From the NCBI RefSeq assembly GCF_019665765.1, contig NZ_CP081150.1, forward strand, positions 1,736,001-1,800,000: a DNA stretch of 64,000 nt. Direction: 5' to 3'. Every line of letters starts with the position of its first letter. Within the stretch, counting starts at the first letter, position 1. The notes under the pieces were generated by a model that searched no databases, was not told where the DNA came from, and saw nothing but the letters and a program-made list of their open reading frames with translations. The position numbers and the translations under genes are program-made. This document shows positions 3,520 to 64,000 of the stretch, one piece after another. Origin of the DNA: Deefgea tanakiae. GTDB lineage: Bacteria; Pseudomonadota; Gammaproteobacteria; Burkholderiales; Chitinibacteraceae.

Positions 3520-4443
3520 TTAAATCAAAGCGAGCAGCAACACTGCAGCACGAGCAGGTAGGCGCGCATTATCAGCGACCAACCATAAGTTCACAGAGCG
3601 ACCATCGGCGGACAATGTCAGTTGATTTAGCCAAACTTTATCACCACCAATCGCATCTTGCGGAGTGGCAATGCCTGAGCTACCTTCCGCTTTCAAATGA
3701 TACAAAGTCGGTGCATCAGCGATTGCAGCTTCTAGTTGTTCCATCGTCACGGCTTGATTTAACTGCACACTCAAACTCACTGCGTGACCAAAAAAAACAG
3801 GAACACGGCTCACCGTCAAACAATTAACTGGCGTACCAATTGTGGTTAATTCTGCGGAAACTCGGGCTTCTTCACCACGTATCGCAGTGGGTAAAATATT
3901 AAAAGCCAAGCGTTTTGGATAGCCTGCTAATTCAACTTCTTGCTGCGCGAATAACTGACGTGTTTGCATAGCCAAAGCATCAATCGCTGATTTGCCATCT
4001 TCAGATACCGATACCATCGCGGTTGCCGCTGCAAAATCAATTTTAGCGATGCTTTGCAAGGCCGCTAATGGCGCAGAAATCATCGACGTCAGTACATGCG
4101 GCAAACCGATAATCTGACCGCGCTGCGGCTTGCCAGTTTTACTGTCTGTTTCGCCGGTTAAATCGATCACTGCAGCGCCAGCTTCTGCTGCGATTTTCGC
4201 GTATTGTGTTGCCAAATCTGGTACACCAACAAACAATACCGCATCGGCTTTGGACCAATCGAATGTCGCGACATCAATCATCGGTAAAGTTTGATTACGC
4301 AGATCTACTGAACTAGCATCTTCATCATCAGACAAGGGATAAAGTGCAGTTACGGCCAAAGGCATTTCGCCCAATACATCCAATACCGCTTGAGATGCAG
4401 GGGTATCAGCCCCAACGAGAGCAACTGAAATTGCTTTAGACAT
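3520..4443 (-). CDS. usg: Aspartate-semialdehyde dehydrogenase-like protein, Usg type (probable pseudoenzyme)
   Basis: Resembles the Usg branch of the Asd superfamily, often located between the leu genes and truA in betaproteobacteria. The start is taken at ATG 4443, behind GGAG, giving 307 residues beginning MSKAISVALVGADTPASQ; the longer frame to 4494 lacks a ribosome site. A Rossmann nucleotide-binding opening and the ALGG-like C-terminal dimerisation fold are recognisable. However, the Asd catalytic segment (normally NCST) reads HVLT near residue 133, so the nucleophilic cysteine is absent. A dehydrogenase role is therefore unlikely; the function of Usg proteins is unknown. It lies directly upstream of the small lipoprotein gene. 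Confidence 0.8.
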   Translation of the reverse strand: MSKAISVALVGADTPASQAVLDVLGEMPLAVTALYPLSDDEDASSVDLRNQTLPMIDVATFDWSKADAVLFVGVPDLATQYAKIAAEAGAAVIDLTGETDSKTGKPQRGQIIGLPHVLTSMISAPLAALQSIAKIDFAAATAMVSVSEDGKSAIDALAMQTRQLFAQQEVELAGYPKRLAFNILPTAIRGEEARVSAELTTIGTPVNCLTVSRVPVFFGHAVSLSVQLNQAVTMEQLEAAIADAPTLYHLKAEGSSGIATPQDAIGGDKVWLNQLTLSADGRSVNLWLVADNARLPARAAVLLLALI

Positions 4444-4529
4444 AAACCCACTCCAAGTATAAAAAAACCAGCACCTGATACTTTCATGCATCAAGGCGAA
4501 TCGGGCATTTTACTCGGTATAGACAGATA

Positions 4530-4562
4530 AAACGAGTACGGCAGTTAAAGCCTTACTCGTTT
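4530..4562 (-). terminator. Terminator after the periplasmic binding protein gene
   Basis: AAACGAGTA (4530-4538) pairs with TACTCGTTT (4554-4562), with an inner GGC/GCC pairing. Read on the minus strand the stem is followed by TTTTATC. Confidence 0.7.
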
Positions 4563-4573
4563 GGTCGAGGCGC

Positions 4574-5344
4574 TTATGGTTTTTGCGCCGTTTGATAGAG
4601 CTCTTCTCGGGTCAGTGCAAACAATTGCTGAAGTTGGCCTGATTTTTCCAATTTGGCCAATCCTGCATTAAATGCTGCGATCCAGCGCTCCGCATTTGGA
4701 TTTCTCTTATTGATTACCACGTGCAATGGTGCTTCCCAATAGGCTTTTTTCTGACAACTCAGTTGCGCTCGTTCTGCTTTGGTGAGATGCATCGCCATTA
4801 AATATGGTGCAACTTCGGCATCAATGGGGAACAAATCAATATGCCCTGCCAGCAGCTTTTTAAAGTTTGCCGCATCACTTGCGGCTGCATCTACCTTTAA
4901 AACGCCACTTGTTTGCAACTTCGAAAAATCATCGGAATAATAATTCCCAGTCGTGATGCCAATAGAATACGGCGCTAAGTCGGCCATTTTTTTCCACGGA
5001 TAGTCTTGATTACTTCGATGACAAAAAACCATTTGCAAAGCAATCACGGGATTGGTGTACAGCAAGTCTTTTTCGCGATCTGGATTTCTTGCCCAGCCGA
5101 AACTGCCATCGTACGCTCCGCGCCGAGCACCTTCAATGGCGCGATTATTCGGTACCGACTTCAAAACCACCTCAATCCCTTGCGAATCAAATGCCGCCAA
5201 TACCGCACGGGTTAATAAGCCTTGATAAGGAATTTTCTCCCCCATATACGGCGGGTATTCTTGCAAAGTGAGAGTAATAGTATCCGCTTTTGCTAAGCCA
5301 GCAATCATAGACAAGCCAATCAATAAAGACAGATTTCGTAGCAC
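4574..5344 (-). CDS. Periplasmic solute-binding protein (amino-acid type, PBPb fold)
   Basis: A 256-residue exported protein of the extracellular solute-binding family 3. Residues 1-20 (MLRNLSLLIGLSMIAGLAKA) form a signal peptide, followed by the family opening ITLTLQEYPPYMGE. YDGSFGWARNPDREKDLLYT near 76-95 and KKLLAGHIDLFPID near 160 are typical of the two-lobed fold. The start codon is GTG, with AAGGGAG six bases upstream. No permease or ATPase gene is nearby, so it may serve a transporter encoded elsewhere or act as a sensor. It has its own terminator and lies behind the leuB terminator, so it is a separate unit. Confidence 0.85.
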   Translation of the reverse strand: MLRNLSLLIGLSMIAGLAKADTITLTLQEYPPYMGEKIPYQGLLTRAVLAAFDSQGIEVVLKSVPNNRAIEGARRGAYDGSFGWARNPDREKDLLYTNPVIALQMVFCHRSNQDYPWKKMADLAPYSIGITTGNYYSDDFSKLQTSGVLKVDAAASDAANFKKLLAGHIDLFPIDAEVAPYLMAMHLTKAERAQLSCQKKAYWEAPLHVVINKRNPNAERWIAAFNAGLAKLEKSGQLQQLFALTREELYQTAQKP

Positions 5345-5404
5345 GATAAACTCCCTTATTCGAATCGATCAAACTGATAAAGCCATACTAGTTGCCCCAA
5401 ATAG

Positions 5405-5433
5405 AAAAAGGCCGACATCTTTAGATGCCAGCC
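5405..5433 (-). terminator. Terminator after leuB
   Basis: On the minus strand GGCTGGCATC and GATGTCGGCC form an imperfect stem around TAAA, followed by TTTTT. It lies 32 bases past the leuB stop. Confidence 0.78.
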
Positions 5434-5464
5434 TCTTTAAGATGATAAACGGTATTTAATCCGA

Positions 5465-6529
5465 TTACATCGCCGCGACCACGGCAGCGCCCATTGCTGA
5501 ACAAGAAACCTTAGTCGTGCCTTCTTCAAAAATATCCGCCGTACGCAAGCCATCGGCCAATACTTTTTTCACTGCATTTTCAACACGTTGCGCTGCAGCT
5601 TCATTATTAAATGTGTAACGAAGCATCATCGCCACCGACAAAATAGTTGCCAATGGATTGGCAATATCTTTGCCCGCGATATCCGGCGCAGAACCGTGAC
5701 TTGGCTCGTACAAGCCTTTGTTGTTCACATCAAGCGAAGCCGAAGGCAACATACCGATTGAGCCCGTCAACATCGATGCTTCATCCGACAAAATATCGCC
5801 GAAGATATTACCCGTCACGACCACGTCGAACTGCTTTGGCGCTTTCACCAATTGCATCGCAGCGTTATCGACCAGCATATGGCTCAACTCCACGTCTGGA
5901 TATTCTTTGGCCATATCGGTCATGATTTCTTTCCAGAATTCAGTCGTTTCGAGCACATTGGCTTTGTCAACTGAACACAGTTTCTTGCCACGCTTTTGCG
6001 CCGCTTGGAAAGCCACATGGCCAATTCGACGAATTTCCGATTCGGCGTACAGCATCGTATTAAAGCCTTCGCGCTCGCCCGCGTCATTTACGCGAATGCC
6101 CCGTGGCTGACCGAAATAAATATCACCCGTCAATTCGCGCACAATCAAAATATCCAAACCAGAAACCACTTCAGGCTTGAGCGTTGATGCGTTAGCGAGT
6201 TCTGGATACAAAATGGCAGGGCGAAGATTGGCGAACAGATTCAAATCTTTGCGAATGGCCAACAGGCCGCGCTCTGGACGCAATGGGCGATCGAGTTTGT
6301 CATATTGCGGGCCACCAACAGCACCGAGCAAAATCGCATCAGCTTCACGCGCTAAGTTTTGCGTGAACTCTGGATACGGCGATCCGTACTGATCATAAGC
6401 TGCGCCGCCTAGAGGCGCTTCTTGCATTTCTAAATCTAAACCGTCATTTTTTAATACTTCGAGCACTTTTTTAGCTTGTGCAACGATTTCAGGGCCAATG
6501 CCATCGCCGGGCAGAATCAATACTTTCAT
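5465..6529 (-). CDS. leuB: 3-isopropylmalate dehydrogenase
   Basis: Oxidatively decarboxylates 3-isopropylmalate to 2-oxoisocaproate, the third step of leucine synthesis, using NAD. The 354-residue product starts [16 protein letters not shown] at 6529; a much longer in-frame extension to 6703 has no family resemblance and was rejected. Substrate loop [22 protein letters not shown] near 92-113, YFGQPRG near 142, the lysine of [10 protein letters not shown] near 192 and the metal aspartates (VDNAAMQL and [14 protein letters not shown], about 223-260) are all present. [14 protein letters not shown] near 291 binds cofactor. It is separated from leuD by nagB and a 406-bp repeat-bearing gap, so it probably has its own promoter. 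Confidence 0.97.
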
Positions 6530-59425: not shown

Positions 59426-59505
59426 TCGCAGTAAATTAAAGCAAACAGCCACCCCTTGTTATATGGTGTAGGTTAATGCTACTAATGCACCAATACTAAC
59501 CAACT

Positions 59506-59541
59506 AAAATGCCATTCTTAACCTTAAGAATGGCATTTTTT
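59506..59541. terminator. Terminator after alaS
   Basis: AAAATGCCATTCTTAA (59506-59521) and TTAAGAATGGCATTTT (59524-59539) form a perfect 16-bp stem with a two-base loop, followed by further T. The 226 bases from here to the HsdR remnant hold nothing recognisable. Confidence 0.92.
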
Positions 59542-59767
59542 ATGTGCGCAATATTGAAATGTGGTGTTAAAACTGCACTAATAGGGGTTGAGTTACTATT
59601 GTAGTTAGGGTGTTCCTAAAACTTAGATCAGTCTGGATGAACTATGGTTTGCATAAGGTTTGATTCTAAGATTTATTAAGCATGAGCAGACACCAACTCA
59701 AACCCTCCAAACCTGCACCCATCAGCGTCAACCATTCCTTGCATGCCAATAATCTGGAATCACGGCT

Positions 59768-60343
59768 TCAACTGATTTCCAGAGTGCGGGTGGTGGTCGT
59801 GGTGTTTGAGGTGGCATAGAGACGCAATTGGTCGATACCGCTTTCCATCGGATTGGCGATATACGGCGATTTTGCCTCAATCACCGCCAGCGGCAAGCCA
59901 TTCACAAAAAGCACAATATCGGGAATCACATTCTGATTAATGCCCTCGATTTTGAACTGATTAACGCACAAAAATTCATTATTGCTGATGTCGTCAAAGT
60001 CGATGATCTTTACCGTCTACCCACGACGGCCATACCCCAAATCCTGTTCGACCGACTGGTAATGCACCAAGGTTTGCCACAGTTTTTGGTTAGCCTCCAT
60101 CAAGGTCACCGTCACCGGATGCGTAATCTCGCGCATCACCTTGCGCAGATTTTCATCGCTAATCCACGGATTAATCCGCAAAATCGCCGCCCGCAAGCGC
60201 TTCTCTAGCACCACCTCACGCCAATATTCACGTTCGCCGTTGGGCGTAGGAGCAAAATCATTGCCATTCAAATAAATCCAGCCCAAGGCTTGTAATTGCT
60301 CAAGTGCGGGCAGTTCTACTTTGTCGAATTCGTCGTTGGTCAT
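59768..60343 (-). pseudogene. Type I restriction enzyme HsdR, N-terminal remnant (amber codon, truncated)
   Basis: Read from ATG 60343, the first 108 residues (MTNDEFDKVELPALEQLQAL, then LRAAILRINPWISDENLRKVMREITHP and SVEQDLGYGRRG) match the HsdR N-terminus. A TAG at 60019-60017 interrupts where Gln (CAG) is usual. The same frame then continues TVKIIDFDDISNNEFLCVNQFKIEGI and keeps the PD...ExK nuclease core in PDIVLFVNGLPLAVIEAKSP. Similarity stops after QLRLYA, followed by a Thr-rich junk tail to the stop at 59768. The motor domains of a roughly 1000-residue HsdR are gone. No hsdM or hsdS is in the window. Confidence 0.88.
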
Positions 60344-60414
60344 GCGCAGAGTCTATGTGAGTGTTGAAGTTGCAGCTTAATATTTAAAGAAAAATTCAAT
60401 AAGTTCGCATGAAT

Positions 60415-63400
60415 TTAAAACTCCTTAATTGAGTCAATTGCAAAACGAACTTCTGGAAGAGCATCAACTGAGGCCTCTGCAAGTAACGCCTGTAGTGCAG
60501 GGTTTTCCGGTAGTTGGCCGACAAGTATTTTAGCCAATTTCACGCATGCTTCCCGAATACTGGATGAATTAACAGCCTCCCTACTTTTTGGATCAATATT
60601 GGCGTAGGTTGCTGCATTAAAGACATCAGGAATGGCCTCTGTCAGCGTTGCAACTTGCTCAGCAGATAAAAATTGTTCTTTGTACAGCTCACCTGAAATC
60701 CAAAGTAATTGTTGCAACCCCACCATGCGACCTGATTCGATAATAACGATTAATCTTGAAATCAAGCTTTTAAGCTGCAACGAGGTTGCCGCTCCTGATT
60801 GCCCCATCCATTTTTGCAGAGCAAAGGCCGCGTAAATCACGGCAACGGCATCTGAACTCTGCAAAGCCTTTTTAATATTCTTTTCAACGGAATAGGCTAT
60901 CTGCTCATCAATTTCTGTAAAGTAAATTAACGCAGGGAGAGCGGTAATGGCCTCATCAATTTGAGAGTAAAAAGCCTGTAATTGCTCAAATCGCTGATTA
61001 GTTTTCGCTTCGCTGGAGAGTGCCGGTGCAATTGCGGAGGAAAGTGCATTACCAATACTTTCAGCTAACTGCTTTTGATTGTTGCGAGCAGCTCCTAAAT
61101 AATCCGTATCGACTTTGAATGGTCGCCATTGCACCAGGCGATCAAACAAGATTAATGCCTGTTCTGGTGTAGGAAACAGATGTGTTTTCACATTCACAGC
61201 GGCATTTACCATTCCTGATAAAATCAAGACCGCTCGCTGAATTTCTGGGGATGGGTAGCTACGCAGTTCTTTCTGAGTATCAGTTAAAATATCCTCGTTA
61301 TGTTCATACAAATAACGATAAATCAATGATCTGACTTGTGCATTGTCCTCTGAAGGTAGGAGTAGATAGGCATGAGGATATAAGTTTGCTACGTTTGGCA
61401 ATAATTGGTATTCCGGCTTGCTTCCCCAAATTGCATCTGCTAATTTTGTTTGCTCTAATTGCGTCAGAAAACCTTCTTTTTCAACTAAGGGTAAAAGCCT
61501 CAATATGGCAGCGGAGCTCGATGTAGACTCGTCCGTTGCTACAGCATTGATTAGTTCGCCGATACGTTTTTCTAATCCGGGGCAATCATTACGCTCGTTG
61601 ATGTGATGAATCACGGGATTTGGCCAGCGATCTCCATCGCTGGTTGGCACTTCAAGGGCCAAGGGAAACACTAACGTATTTGCCAATAACCCCCCCTGAT
61701 CTATCGCTGGAATGCTTATTAGCGAATGAGTTAGTAGAGAGCCGATGACTTCAAACAACCAGAAATGTTGCAAGTTCGACTGTTGCCCGAGTGAGAGAGC
61801 CAACCTAAAAATTTCTTTGGCCTTTTCTGTAGGTACTCGAATAGCTAGACGTGCTAATACCTCAATTAGAACCAGTAAAACAGAAAGTGCATGGTCTTGC
61901 TGCTCATCGGTGCCATTGCCCCGCAGTTTTCGCCAGTAATCAATCGCGATCAAAATACGATCAATCAAAATATCCACAACATCTTTTGATGCTCTAGCAA
62001 CACCGATCCGAGTAAAAAAATCTTTGATTGTTGGCGAAGTTTCACTGTTAGCAGCGCGAATTGCTAAGGTATAGTTCCATAGCTCTATTCCGACACCGCC
62101 AGATAACATCAATTTTTCAACAGCCCAAGCGAGTAGATCTACGTTTATTAACGCTCGGCCAGAACGCAAAGGAATACCAACGCTTCTGGTCAATCCTTCC
62201 ATCAGGAAAAACTCGGCTGTTTCATTACTGATTGAATACTGGTTTGAGTTGTCCCGATAGTGGCCTTGTGTAAATGAAGGTTCAATTGGGTTTTGTTTTT
62301 TAATGAATTCTTCTTGCCGCTTTCGAAGTTTTTCTTGAATCTCTTCGATCCAGCGCCATGGATCGCATCTCCATTTTCGATACACACTTTCAGCAAATGC
62401 AGGAAGCTTTTCAGTCCCTTCTTGATCAAATCTAGCACTTCGAGCTGATTTTAGTAACCAATGAACCCAGGTTAGGCGCGATAAGGTAGAGATAGAGTTA
62501 CGATCACGGCGGTAGCTTTCACGTAATTCGCCATAAGCCTTGCTGATTAATTGAGTTCCTTCATCAAACCTCCCCAAAGCCATTAGCAATGCCGCTTGGC
62601 GTACTTTCCAAATGGGATCTTCGCCAATGATTTTTCCAAGCTCGACTTCCATGCCTGCATAATTCAACGCATCCCTAGCAACAAGGGCTCGATGGTAGGC
62701 TAATTCGGCTCCGGCATCTGGCAGATACTGCGCATGTTTTTCTAATACGCTGATCAGTGCGTGTATACGTTCTTGAACTACTGCCTTGCCCGCATCGTCA
62801 TCAGCATTTAGCCATCGACTGTTTTTAAGCAGTAATAAGGCAATTTCCAATTGTTGTCGTTTACTGATCGCGCATGGCTGATCAGGGTTGGCAAATTGGA
62901 AAAGGGTTTCCATAAGCCAAGGCGCAATGTACTCAAAAGTAATGTTATATCGCCATGCTATTTCGTAAACCAACTTGGCTCGATCTGCCTCGTCAAGCGC
63001 TGCAATGTTATTTGCACTGGGATATGGATCACATAGTTGAGAACGTATCTGCCACTGCAGTGCTGGAGGGCATACCAACCATCCAGGATAGGACTCTCGA
63101 TCACTTTTTAATGCATCTAGCTGCCCTTTTAACAGCGTGGCTGCGTATTCATGTTCTTTGTATGTGCGAGTGTGGTCATCTGAAGTAACTTGCGAACGAT
63201 GTAAATTACTTGGTGACCACTCATGAGGAGTCGTTTTGGAGCAGCCTTCGTCTTTCATTGCCAGCAGAAACGATTCAGTCGCATTTTGATGCCTGAGATC
63301 ACGATCATCAATATGTTTCACTAAATCCCACAAATCTATCGGGGCGACGTTGATCGACTCCAGATACTTGCGCTGCGCTGCTGTTAGATTTAAAGCGCCA

Positions 63401-64000
63401 ACCAGATAAATTTTCCGCGCATGATCGGCTAATTGATCGCGCACCCAACCAGCCCATTGCAAGAAATTGGGGTCGTCGCCAGAAAAACCCAGTAAACAAA
63501 GCTCATTTTCGATAAATACTTGCCGTGCAAAATTAATGAATGGCGCAAATTTTGCTGGATACGTTCGGTAATCTTCTTGTGCAGCAATAAAAGTGTCGGT
63601 GATTCCGATGGTACCGTGAAGCTTAACAATGCGCGGAGATGGTGCCCATGACAGATCTGCTGGCTTGGTGACTGGGGTGTAATAAGGACCGTGAACATCT
63701 TTGCACGCGCGTTCCAATAGTGTATCCCAATTGGTAGTCATGATTTCTGACCATGGCAACTCCAACAGTGACTGGTAAAGCGCTCCGGTTCTCCACGCCT
63801 CGTCGTCGATTTCGGAGCGAACTCGGTCGTTCAATGCTGCTTGCCCAAAGTAAGCTCGATATTCCTCCGCTACGCGTAAGGGATCAGAAAAACTGTGATT
63901 CTTATCATTGGGGCTGAGTTCTGCAACAAGCTTTTTGCTGAAATCATTCCACAGTGACATTTTCTTTTCGCCGCCGACGTGACATGCAGCGCTACGACTA
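60415..64000 (-). CDS. SIR2-domain anti-phage defence protein (DSR-like), N-terminus beyond window
   Basis: The frame is open from the stop at 60415 past the first Met (63960) to base 64000, giving at least 1194 residues. The in-frame 13 residues before that Met (SRSAACHVGGEKK) followed by MSLWNDFSKKL look like the degenerate NAD-loop start of a SIR2 fold, so the true start is probably outside. Counting from Met 63960, the SIR2 catalytic Asn is N77 in MTTNWDTLLE and the His H115 in RIVKLHGTIG; LLGFSGDDPNFLQWAGWVRD near 155 is the third motif. The remaining about 900 residues are helical, repeat-like, without known motifs, like the C-terminal sensor of defence-associated sirtuins that deplete NAD on infection. 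It is transcribed toward the HsdR remnant 71 bases away. Confidence 0.85.
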   Translation of the reverse strand, partial: SRSAACHVGGEKKMSLWNDFSKKLVAELSPNDKNHSFSDPLRVAEEYRAYFGQAALNDRVRSEIDDEAWRTGALYQSLLELPWSEIMTTNWDTLLERACKDVHGPYYTPVTKPADLSWAPSPRIVKLHGTIGITDTFIAAQEDYRTYPAKFAPFINFARQVFIENELCLLGFSGDDPNFLQWAGWVRDQLADHARKIYLVGALNLTAAQRKYLESINVAPIDLWDLVKHIDDRDLRHQNATESFLLAMKDEGCSKTTPHEWSPSNLHRSQVTSDDHTRTYKEHEYAATLLKGQLDALKSDRESYPGWLVCPPALQWQIRSQLCDPYPSANNIAALDEADRAKLVYEIAWRYNITFEYIAPWLMETLFQFANPDQPCAISKRQQLEIALLLLKNSRWLNADDDAGKAVVQERIHALISVLEKHAQYLPDAGAELAYHRALVARDALNYAGMEVELGKIIGEDPIWKVRQAALLMALGRFDEGTQLISKAYGELRESYRRDRNSISTLSRLTWVHWLLKSARSARFDQEGTEKLPAFAESVYRKWRCDPWRWIEEIQEKLRKRQEEFIKKQNPIEPSFTQGHYRDNSNQYSISNETAEFFLMEGLTRSVGIPLRSGRALINVDLLAWAVEKLMLSGGVGIELWNYTLAIRAANSETSPTIKDFFTRIGVARASKDVVDILIDRILIAIDYWRKLRGNGTDEQQDHALSVLLVLIEVLARLAIRVPTEKAKEIFRLALSLGQQSNLQHFWLFEVIGSLLTHSLISIPAIDQGGLLANTLVFPLALEVPTSDGDRWPNPVIHHINERNDCPGLEKRIGELINAVATDESTSSSAAILRLLPLVEKEGFLTQLEQTKLADAIWGSKPEYQLLPNVANLYPHAYLLLPSEDNAQVRSLIYRYLYEHNEDILTDTQKELRSYPSPEIQRAVLILSGMVNAAVNVKTHLFPTPEQALILFDRLVQWRPFKVDTDYLGAARNNQKQLAESIGNALSSAIAPALSSEAKTNQRFEQLQAFYSQIDEAITALPALIYFTEIDEQIAYSVEKNIKKALQSSDAVAVIYAAFALQKWMGQSGAATSLQLKSLISRLIVIIESGRMVGLQQLLWISGELYKEQFLSAEQVATLTEAIPDVFNAATYANIDPKSREAVNSSSIREACVKLAKILVGQLPENPALQALLAEASVDALPEVRFAIDSIKEF

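Follow-up and report, generated by a model that had tools for sequence, protein, structure and literature searches.

The gene at positions 60415..64000 on the reverse strand of a 64,000-nucleotide stretch of Deefgea tanakiae DNA (the window, corresponding to G000:C1:1736001-1800000 of the genome) encodes a SIR2-domain protein that, judging from its sequence, falls in a distinct, diverged branch of Dsr2, a defence family already known, and is thus a useful relative and no new kind of system. The gene, referred to here as dsr, very likely acts as a single-gene anti-phage NADase of the Dsr2 type, because its predicted product combines intact SIR2 motifs with an arm of ~940 residues that has a DSR2-like predicted fold, and the protein probably destroys the nicotinamide adenine dinucleotide (NAD) of the cell once this long helical arm detects a phage.

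Reading frame and catalytic residues

Within the window, dsr is a stop-free single frame of 1194 codons (60415-63999, - strand), and the TTN, KLHG, and GFSGDDPN motifs, which the initial annotation had assigned to a single long frame of about 1194 residues, could all be read back from the window: TTNWD at 63724..63738 with the catalytic N128 (N133 of Bacillus subtilis DSR2), KLHG at 63613..63624 with the catalytic H166 (H171 of DSR2), and GFSGDDPN at 63466..63489, all on the - strand. The upstream extension proposed for finding the true start located an ATG in the genome 113 bases past the window end, resulting in a full protein of 1232 residues (L003:1416-5114:-), of which residues 1-38 are encoded outside the window and residues 39-1232 within it. 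Because the missing 38 residues carry most of the GAGFS motif (residues 35-39), the NAD-binding segment is present, and the upstream stop without such a segment that had been feared is absent. The in-window part of the N-terminal SIR2 NADase domain, with GAGFS mostly outside, comprises residues 39-289 (63247..64000, -). The catalytic residues had earlier been numbered N77 and H115 from an in-window ATG at 63960, and are N128 and H166 in the full-length numbering.

SIR2_2 (PF13289, E = 2.6e-20) was the sole Pfam domain at E <= 0.01 in the full protein. A chance origin of the frame is ruled out by this match, by the match to the PADLOC Dsr2 profile (E = 2.8e-145 over residues 28-1201), and by 98 relatives found elsewhere by a genome scan, of which 80 were kept. 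N128, D130, and H166 align with N133, D135, and H171 of B. subtilis DSR2 at the same spacing, both catalytic residues thus being intact. According to passages in PMC10973363, NAD+ was not degraded by the DSR2 double mutant N133A/H171A, and passages in PMC11263360 describe lowered NAD+ degradation for D135A or H171A. The catalytic Asn was present in all 80 kept relatives and the catalytic His in 78 of them. The peptide patterns used in the genome scan included EIMTTNWD and DDPNFLQW, with KLHG not among them, so that the conservation of TTN and DDPN, which lie within the search peptides, is partly by construction. GFSGDDPN is common to the relatives of ~1200 residues, whereas B. subtilis DSR2 differs there in the alignment. 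Taken together, the SIR2_2 and PADLOC Dsr2 matches, the retained catalytic residues, and the NAD-binding segment bear out the initial assignment of the gene to SIR2 defence-type proteins related to DSR.

Family placement and the C-terminal arm

The full protein matched the PADLOC Dsr2 profile PDLC02184 with 484 bits (456 for the in-window part), with residues 28-1201 aligned to positions 23-1188 of 1222, and this coverage indicates homology between its C-terminal region and the one in known Dsr2 proteins. The protein is similar in length to this profile and to the NCBIfam Dsr2 equivalog NF041819 (1215 positions), has the SIR2 domain at the N terminus as they do, and is collinear with them nearly throughout. 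Its NF041819 score was 456 bits (1194-residue in-window part), far below the cut-off of 1400, so that by the NCBI criterion it would not be named Dsr2. The NCBIfam and PADLOC scans covered eight of the 80 relatives, three of which passed the cut-off (L053, L063, and L067), the others remaining below it (L060, 766; L048, 593; L016, 465; L005, 459; L031, 458 bits).

The tree was built from 67 of the 80 relatives (at least 1100 residues) and the Deefgea protein by a quick IQ-TREE run, with support from the SH-aLRT (Shimodaira-Hasegawa-like approximate likelihood ratio test) only and midpoint rooting for drawing; an unusual composition was flagged in 32 rows. The three NCBIfam-positive relatives fell in a clade of 18 sequences, called Dsr2-proper here, with support of 100 and with L060 beside it, the other members being assigned to it by the tree. 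A second group holds eight sequences (support 100), and the Deefgea protein belongs to a third of 41 sequences, itself included (support 100, branch 0.5), its nearest rows being from Ferrovum (67-68% identity), Undibacterium, Glaciimonas, Paraburkholderia, and Cycloclasticus. Dsr2-proper relatives also carry GFSGDDPN, but the mean identity of the Deefgea protein to 18 sequences (17 Dsr2-proper and L060) was 41.5% in the SIR2 domain and 17.4% in the C-terminal region. Given the separate clade, the score below the NF041819 cut-off, and the C-terminal identity of ~17% to typical Dsr2, the suggestion of a new branch in the initial annotation held. Alignments A1 and A2 comprised 61 of the 80 relatives (length >= 1140), after exclusion by hand of L032, L033, L034, L050, L061, and L083 as partial or similar to other entries (L083 being one of the two with His replaced by Asn).

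The C-terminal region had been described as long, helical, and without a recognisable motif. An AlphaFold2 model agreed with the first part of this description, residues 290-1232 (60418..63246, -) being mostly helix with four short strands. The second part did not stand: the region matches the Dsr2 profile over almost its whole length, and in structure comparisons of the full and C-terminal models, the predicted fold of the arm was closest to that of B. subtilis DSR2, with a DSR2-type middle domain and a HEAT-repeat sensor arm. In the full-model alignment, residues ~918-1232 reach past the DSR2 counterpart, and the C-terminal-model alignments distribute the extra length over DSR2 differently. 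This C-terminal part (about residues 918-1232; 60418..61362, -) is ARM-like and partly ill-conserved, and it may be the end that binds the trigger. Within the group of 41 sequences, mean identity was among the lowest in windows 921-960 and 1001-1080 (23 and 28%), with further low windows at 281-320, 561-600, and 641-680 (31, 28, and 29%), and thus variability is not limited to the C-terminal end.

Several observations weigh against the Dsr2-type NADase reading, the low NF041819 score being one of them. By phmmer and profile search, similarity to solved DSR2 ended at the SIR2 domain, and DSR2 was absent from the first 50 matches listed for the C-terminal model by Foldseek, which were other helical-repeat type proteins only, with template modelling (TM) scores below 0.3. 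For the full model, Foldseek gave TM < 0.45 to the long matches with DSR2, and high scores come easily to superhelical repeat folds. In addition, 2 of the 80 relatives (L057 and L083) read KLNG, with Asn replacing the catalytic His, and the publications consulted contained no measurement of activity, phage defence, or NAD for members of the branch.

Among known systems, B. subtilis DSR2 (1005 residues; PDB 8k98, 8wyb, and others) is activated by a phage tail tube protein, inhibited by DSAD1, and forms a tetramer. The Deefgea protein shares its catalytic Asn and His, their spacing, and the closest predicted arm fold, but is ~230 residues longer, with sequence likeness found within SIR2 only. 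No PADLOC Dsr1 model matched the full protein at E <= 0.01 or the in-window part at E <= 1. ThsA profiles of Thoeris match the SIR2 part only, the Deefgea protein having a helical arm instead; no SLOG domain was found by Pfam and no ThsB-type gene or TIR domain among the neighbours scanned. Avs5 (SIR2-STAND; 9jap and 9nc9 among the structure matches) likewise joins a SIR2 effector at the N terminus to a large sensor, but a STAND NTPase was not found in the Deefgea protein by Pfam (E <= 0.01).

A whole-genome search of 43 genomes from the family found dsr in 1, its own, and in none of six genus mates; in a sample of the class, it was found in 1 of 369 genomes, again its own. A search of 20,395 Escherichia coli records with the Citrobacter relative gave no near match at the DNA level, which excludes close DNA relatives only. 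A phage search gave one record, covering 24% of the protein, and IMG/VR contained 12 relatives. Judged by title and abstract start, no publication among the matches listed deals with this branch or with the operons in which its members occur.

Genomic context and competing explanations

The gene might instead encode a guard of DNA-targeting systems, sensing when a restriction or CRISPR machine encoded next to it fails or is inhibited and not a phage structural protein, although we consider this unlikely. A precedent for such a guard is PrrC, which the abstracts of PMC2610378 and PMC3874168 tie to a type I restriction enzyme. Some support comes from the neighbourhoods of the relatives, for 20 of which selected flanking genes were searched for domains. 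In eight of them (L011, L012, L013, L021-L024, and L028; e.g., L011:5101-17244), dsr lies directly before a type III mod gene, the likely mod ATG following the dsr stop by 6-8 bases; a dsr/mod overlap was an artefact of an early start chosen by the open reading frame (ORF) caller. These loci include a res gene further on in seven of the eight (L013 is cut by the contig), a DrmD-like SNF2 helicase within ~6 kb upstream in six, and a RhuM-like gene after mod in five (PDC-S05 in L011), the families being assigned by profiles on L011 and partly L022 and by BLAST in the rest. In two Pasteurellaceae loci (Cricetibacter and Bibersteinia; L014:5687-15741 and L019:5667-15663), the only dsr carriers among 140 genomes of that family, dsr is found inside a type I-C operon, with cas3 on one side and cas5 on the other; Pfam identified a Cas3-like helicase, Cas5, Csd1, and Cas4 in L014, and the L019 operon was assigned by BLAST to L014.

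Other relatives lie near a type ISP enzyme (L005), HsdR (L026), GmrSD (L008), a ThsB-like TIR gene (L018), or a SIR2-STAND gene (L036), and the Deefgea gene itself adjoins a broken hsdR. A 108-residue ORF at 60017..60343 (-), 71 bases downstream of dsr, is an N-terminal piece of the type I restriction protein HsdR (PF04313, 4e-9; PADLOC REase_I, 2e-9), and a further HsdR-like coding remnant past its stop (59771..60016, -; translation, with the likeness judged by eye) indicates that hsdR is truncated. This remnant presumably contains a nuclease motif, as assigned by eye.

A constant genetic linkage to a restriction-modification operon of the PrrC kind was not found among 30 Mod loci of one family, and for the majority of the 80 relatives, no location in a restriction-modification or CRISPR operon was found. 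The neighbours are non-defence or other genes in L006, L007, L010, and L037 (gyrB; a LysR-type regulator, by eye; an AcrB-type pump; a RelA/SpoT domain), and the L030 neighbour had no domain match. Furthermore, dsr as an obligate part of type III restriction-modification was rejected: when 30 of 37 Mod places in one family were read up to ~1.5 kb upstream, dsr preceded mod in only one, that of the Mod sequence used as query, and 15 others had a close Mod and a close Res without dsr. The link to type III systems is therefore recurrent but optional, and because it represents two changes on the tree, a single origin of the link is not shown. The hsdR of the window is itself broken, and defence genes cluster in any case.

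It is also quite improbable that dsr is a decayed or inactive passenger in a degenerating island, although the broken hsdR would fit such a history. The gene is part of an 11.7-kb block, in the window 59455..64000, which starts ~30 bases past alaS and, as compared by blastn, is absent from this place in genus mates. The comparison used ~1.5-kb flanks and took in six genus-mate loci for alaS and five for the first sulfate-binding-protein gene, so that other parts of the block may be present elsewhere in these genomes. All six matched to ~30 bases past alaS, and the sulfate-binding-protein gene was common to the five from ~12.1-12.3 kb on, but the two places were joined in no genus mate compared. 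A simple insertion between them is thus unsupported, and the block also marks a rearrangement, the two genes not being neighbours in genus mates. Direct repeats that convincingly flank the block were not found. Just past alaS at the block edge is a perfect 16-base inverted repeat with a 2-base loop (59506-59539), possibly a terminator between convergent genes.

The same block holds remnants of a gamma-mobile-trio element (L003:8216-11739), in which the genes look truncated or interrupted: upstream, a gmtY (42% to annotated GmtY) with its end abutted by an IS3-type element (ORFs by eye; 28-base inverted repeats), a 159-residue piece matching VPA1269-family proteins, which is a putative gmtZ, and a gmtX (38% to annotated GmtX). 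Gamma-mobile-trio elements often carry defence cargo. The second SIR2 gene of the genome (L004:5466-7127 and 4324-5541; G000:C1 about 1915323-1918126) also appears to be split over two overlapping frames, its first piece matching B. subtilis DSR2 (8wkt) at 3.5e-41 over residues 8-330 of the latter and its second piece being without a PDB match. An integrase-like gene (by eye) adjoins it. Against decay of dsr itself, its 1232-codon frame is unbroken and retains all four motifs, and the protein is 67% identical to the Ferrovum relative.

A two-gene NAD-depletion module, in which the SIR2 protein would act with a RES-domain protein of 325 residues (L003:5225-6202, -; RES, 5.8e-17) encoded 110 bp upstream and co-directionally, just past the window end, is highly improbable: a further BLAST match among the loci of the 80 relatives was obtained only for the distant Dsr2-proper member L064 (E 0.001), in which a gene 109 bp upstream of dsr (L064:6513-7817) has a RES match just above the cut-off, and of 30 places listed for PF08808, which occurs in 20 of 30 genomes, only that of L064 lies within a dsr locus (all 30 checked by coordinates and frame, and eight by sequence). 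The RES gene as a general part of the system is unsupported; the flanks vary across the loci of the 80 relatives.

Proposed mechanism and implications

As a Dsr2-type NADase, the protein would have its SIR2 domains kept inactive in an oligomer in the uninfected cell. Upon infection, the arm would bind a phage-made protein, most likely a structural one by analogy with DSR2 and the tail tube protein, and this binding would free the SIR2 domain for NAD+ cleavage, so that the cell would stop or die ahead of phage maturation, as in abortive infection. The longer, variable C-terminal part may help to choose the phage protein that is bound, and the trigger may therefore differ from that of B. subtilis DSR2, which, given the length and variability of this region, is plausible but not more than that. 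There is also a small chance that the extended C-terminal HEAT/ARM part senses a cue other than the tail tube, such as an anti-restriction or anti-CRISPR protein or a stalled DNA-targeting machine; if true, this would explain why the gene recurs inside operons of type III restriction and type I-C CRISPR systems as well as next to enzymes of type I and type ISP.

The putative Dsr2-type NADase encoded by dsr links two kinds of "DSR2" that were separate in the present sequence searches: the B. subtilis protein of 1005 residues, for which structures have been solved, and the ~1200-residue Dsr2 profile family. The shared arm fold, as predicted here, suggests that the tail-tube sensing model may reach the large Dsr2 profile group, and the branch, together with its variable C-terminal part, provides concrete regions for asking what sets the phage trigger.
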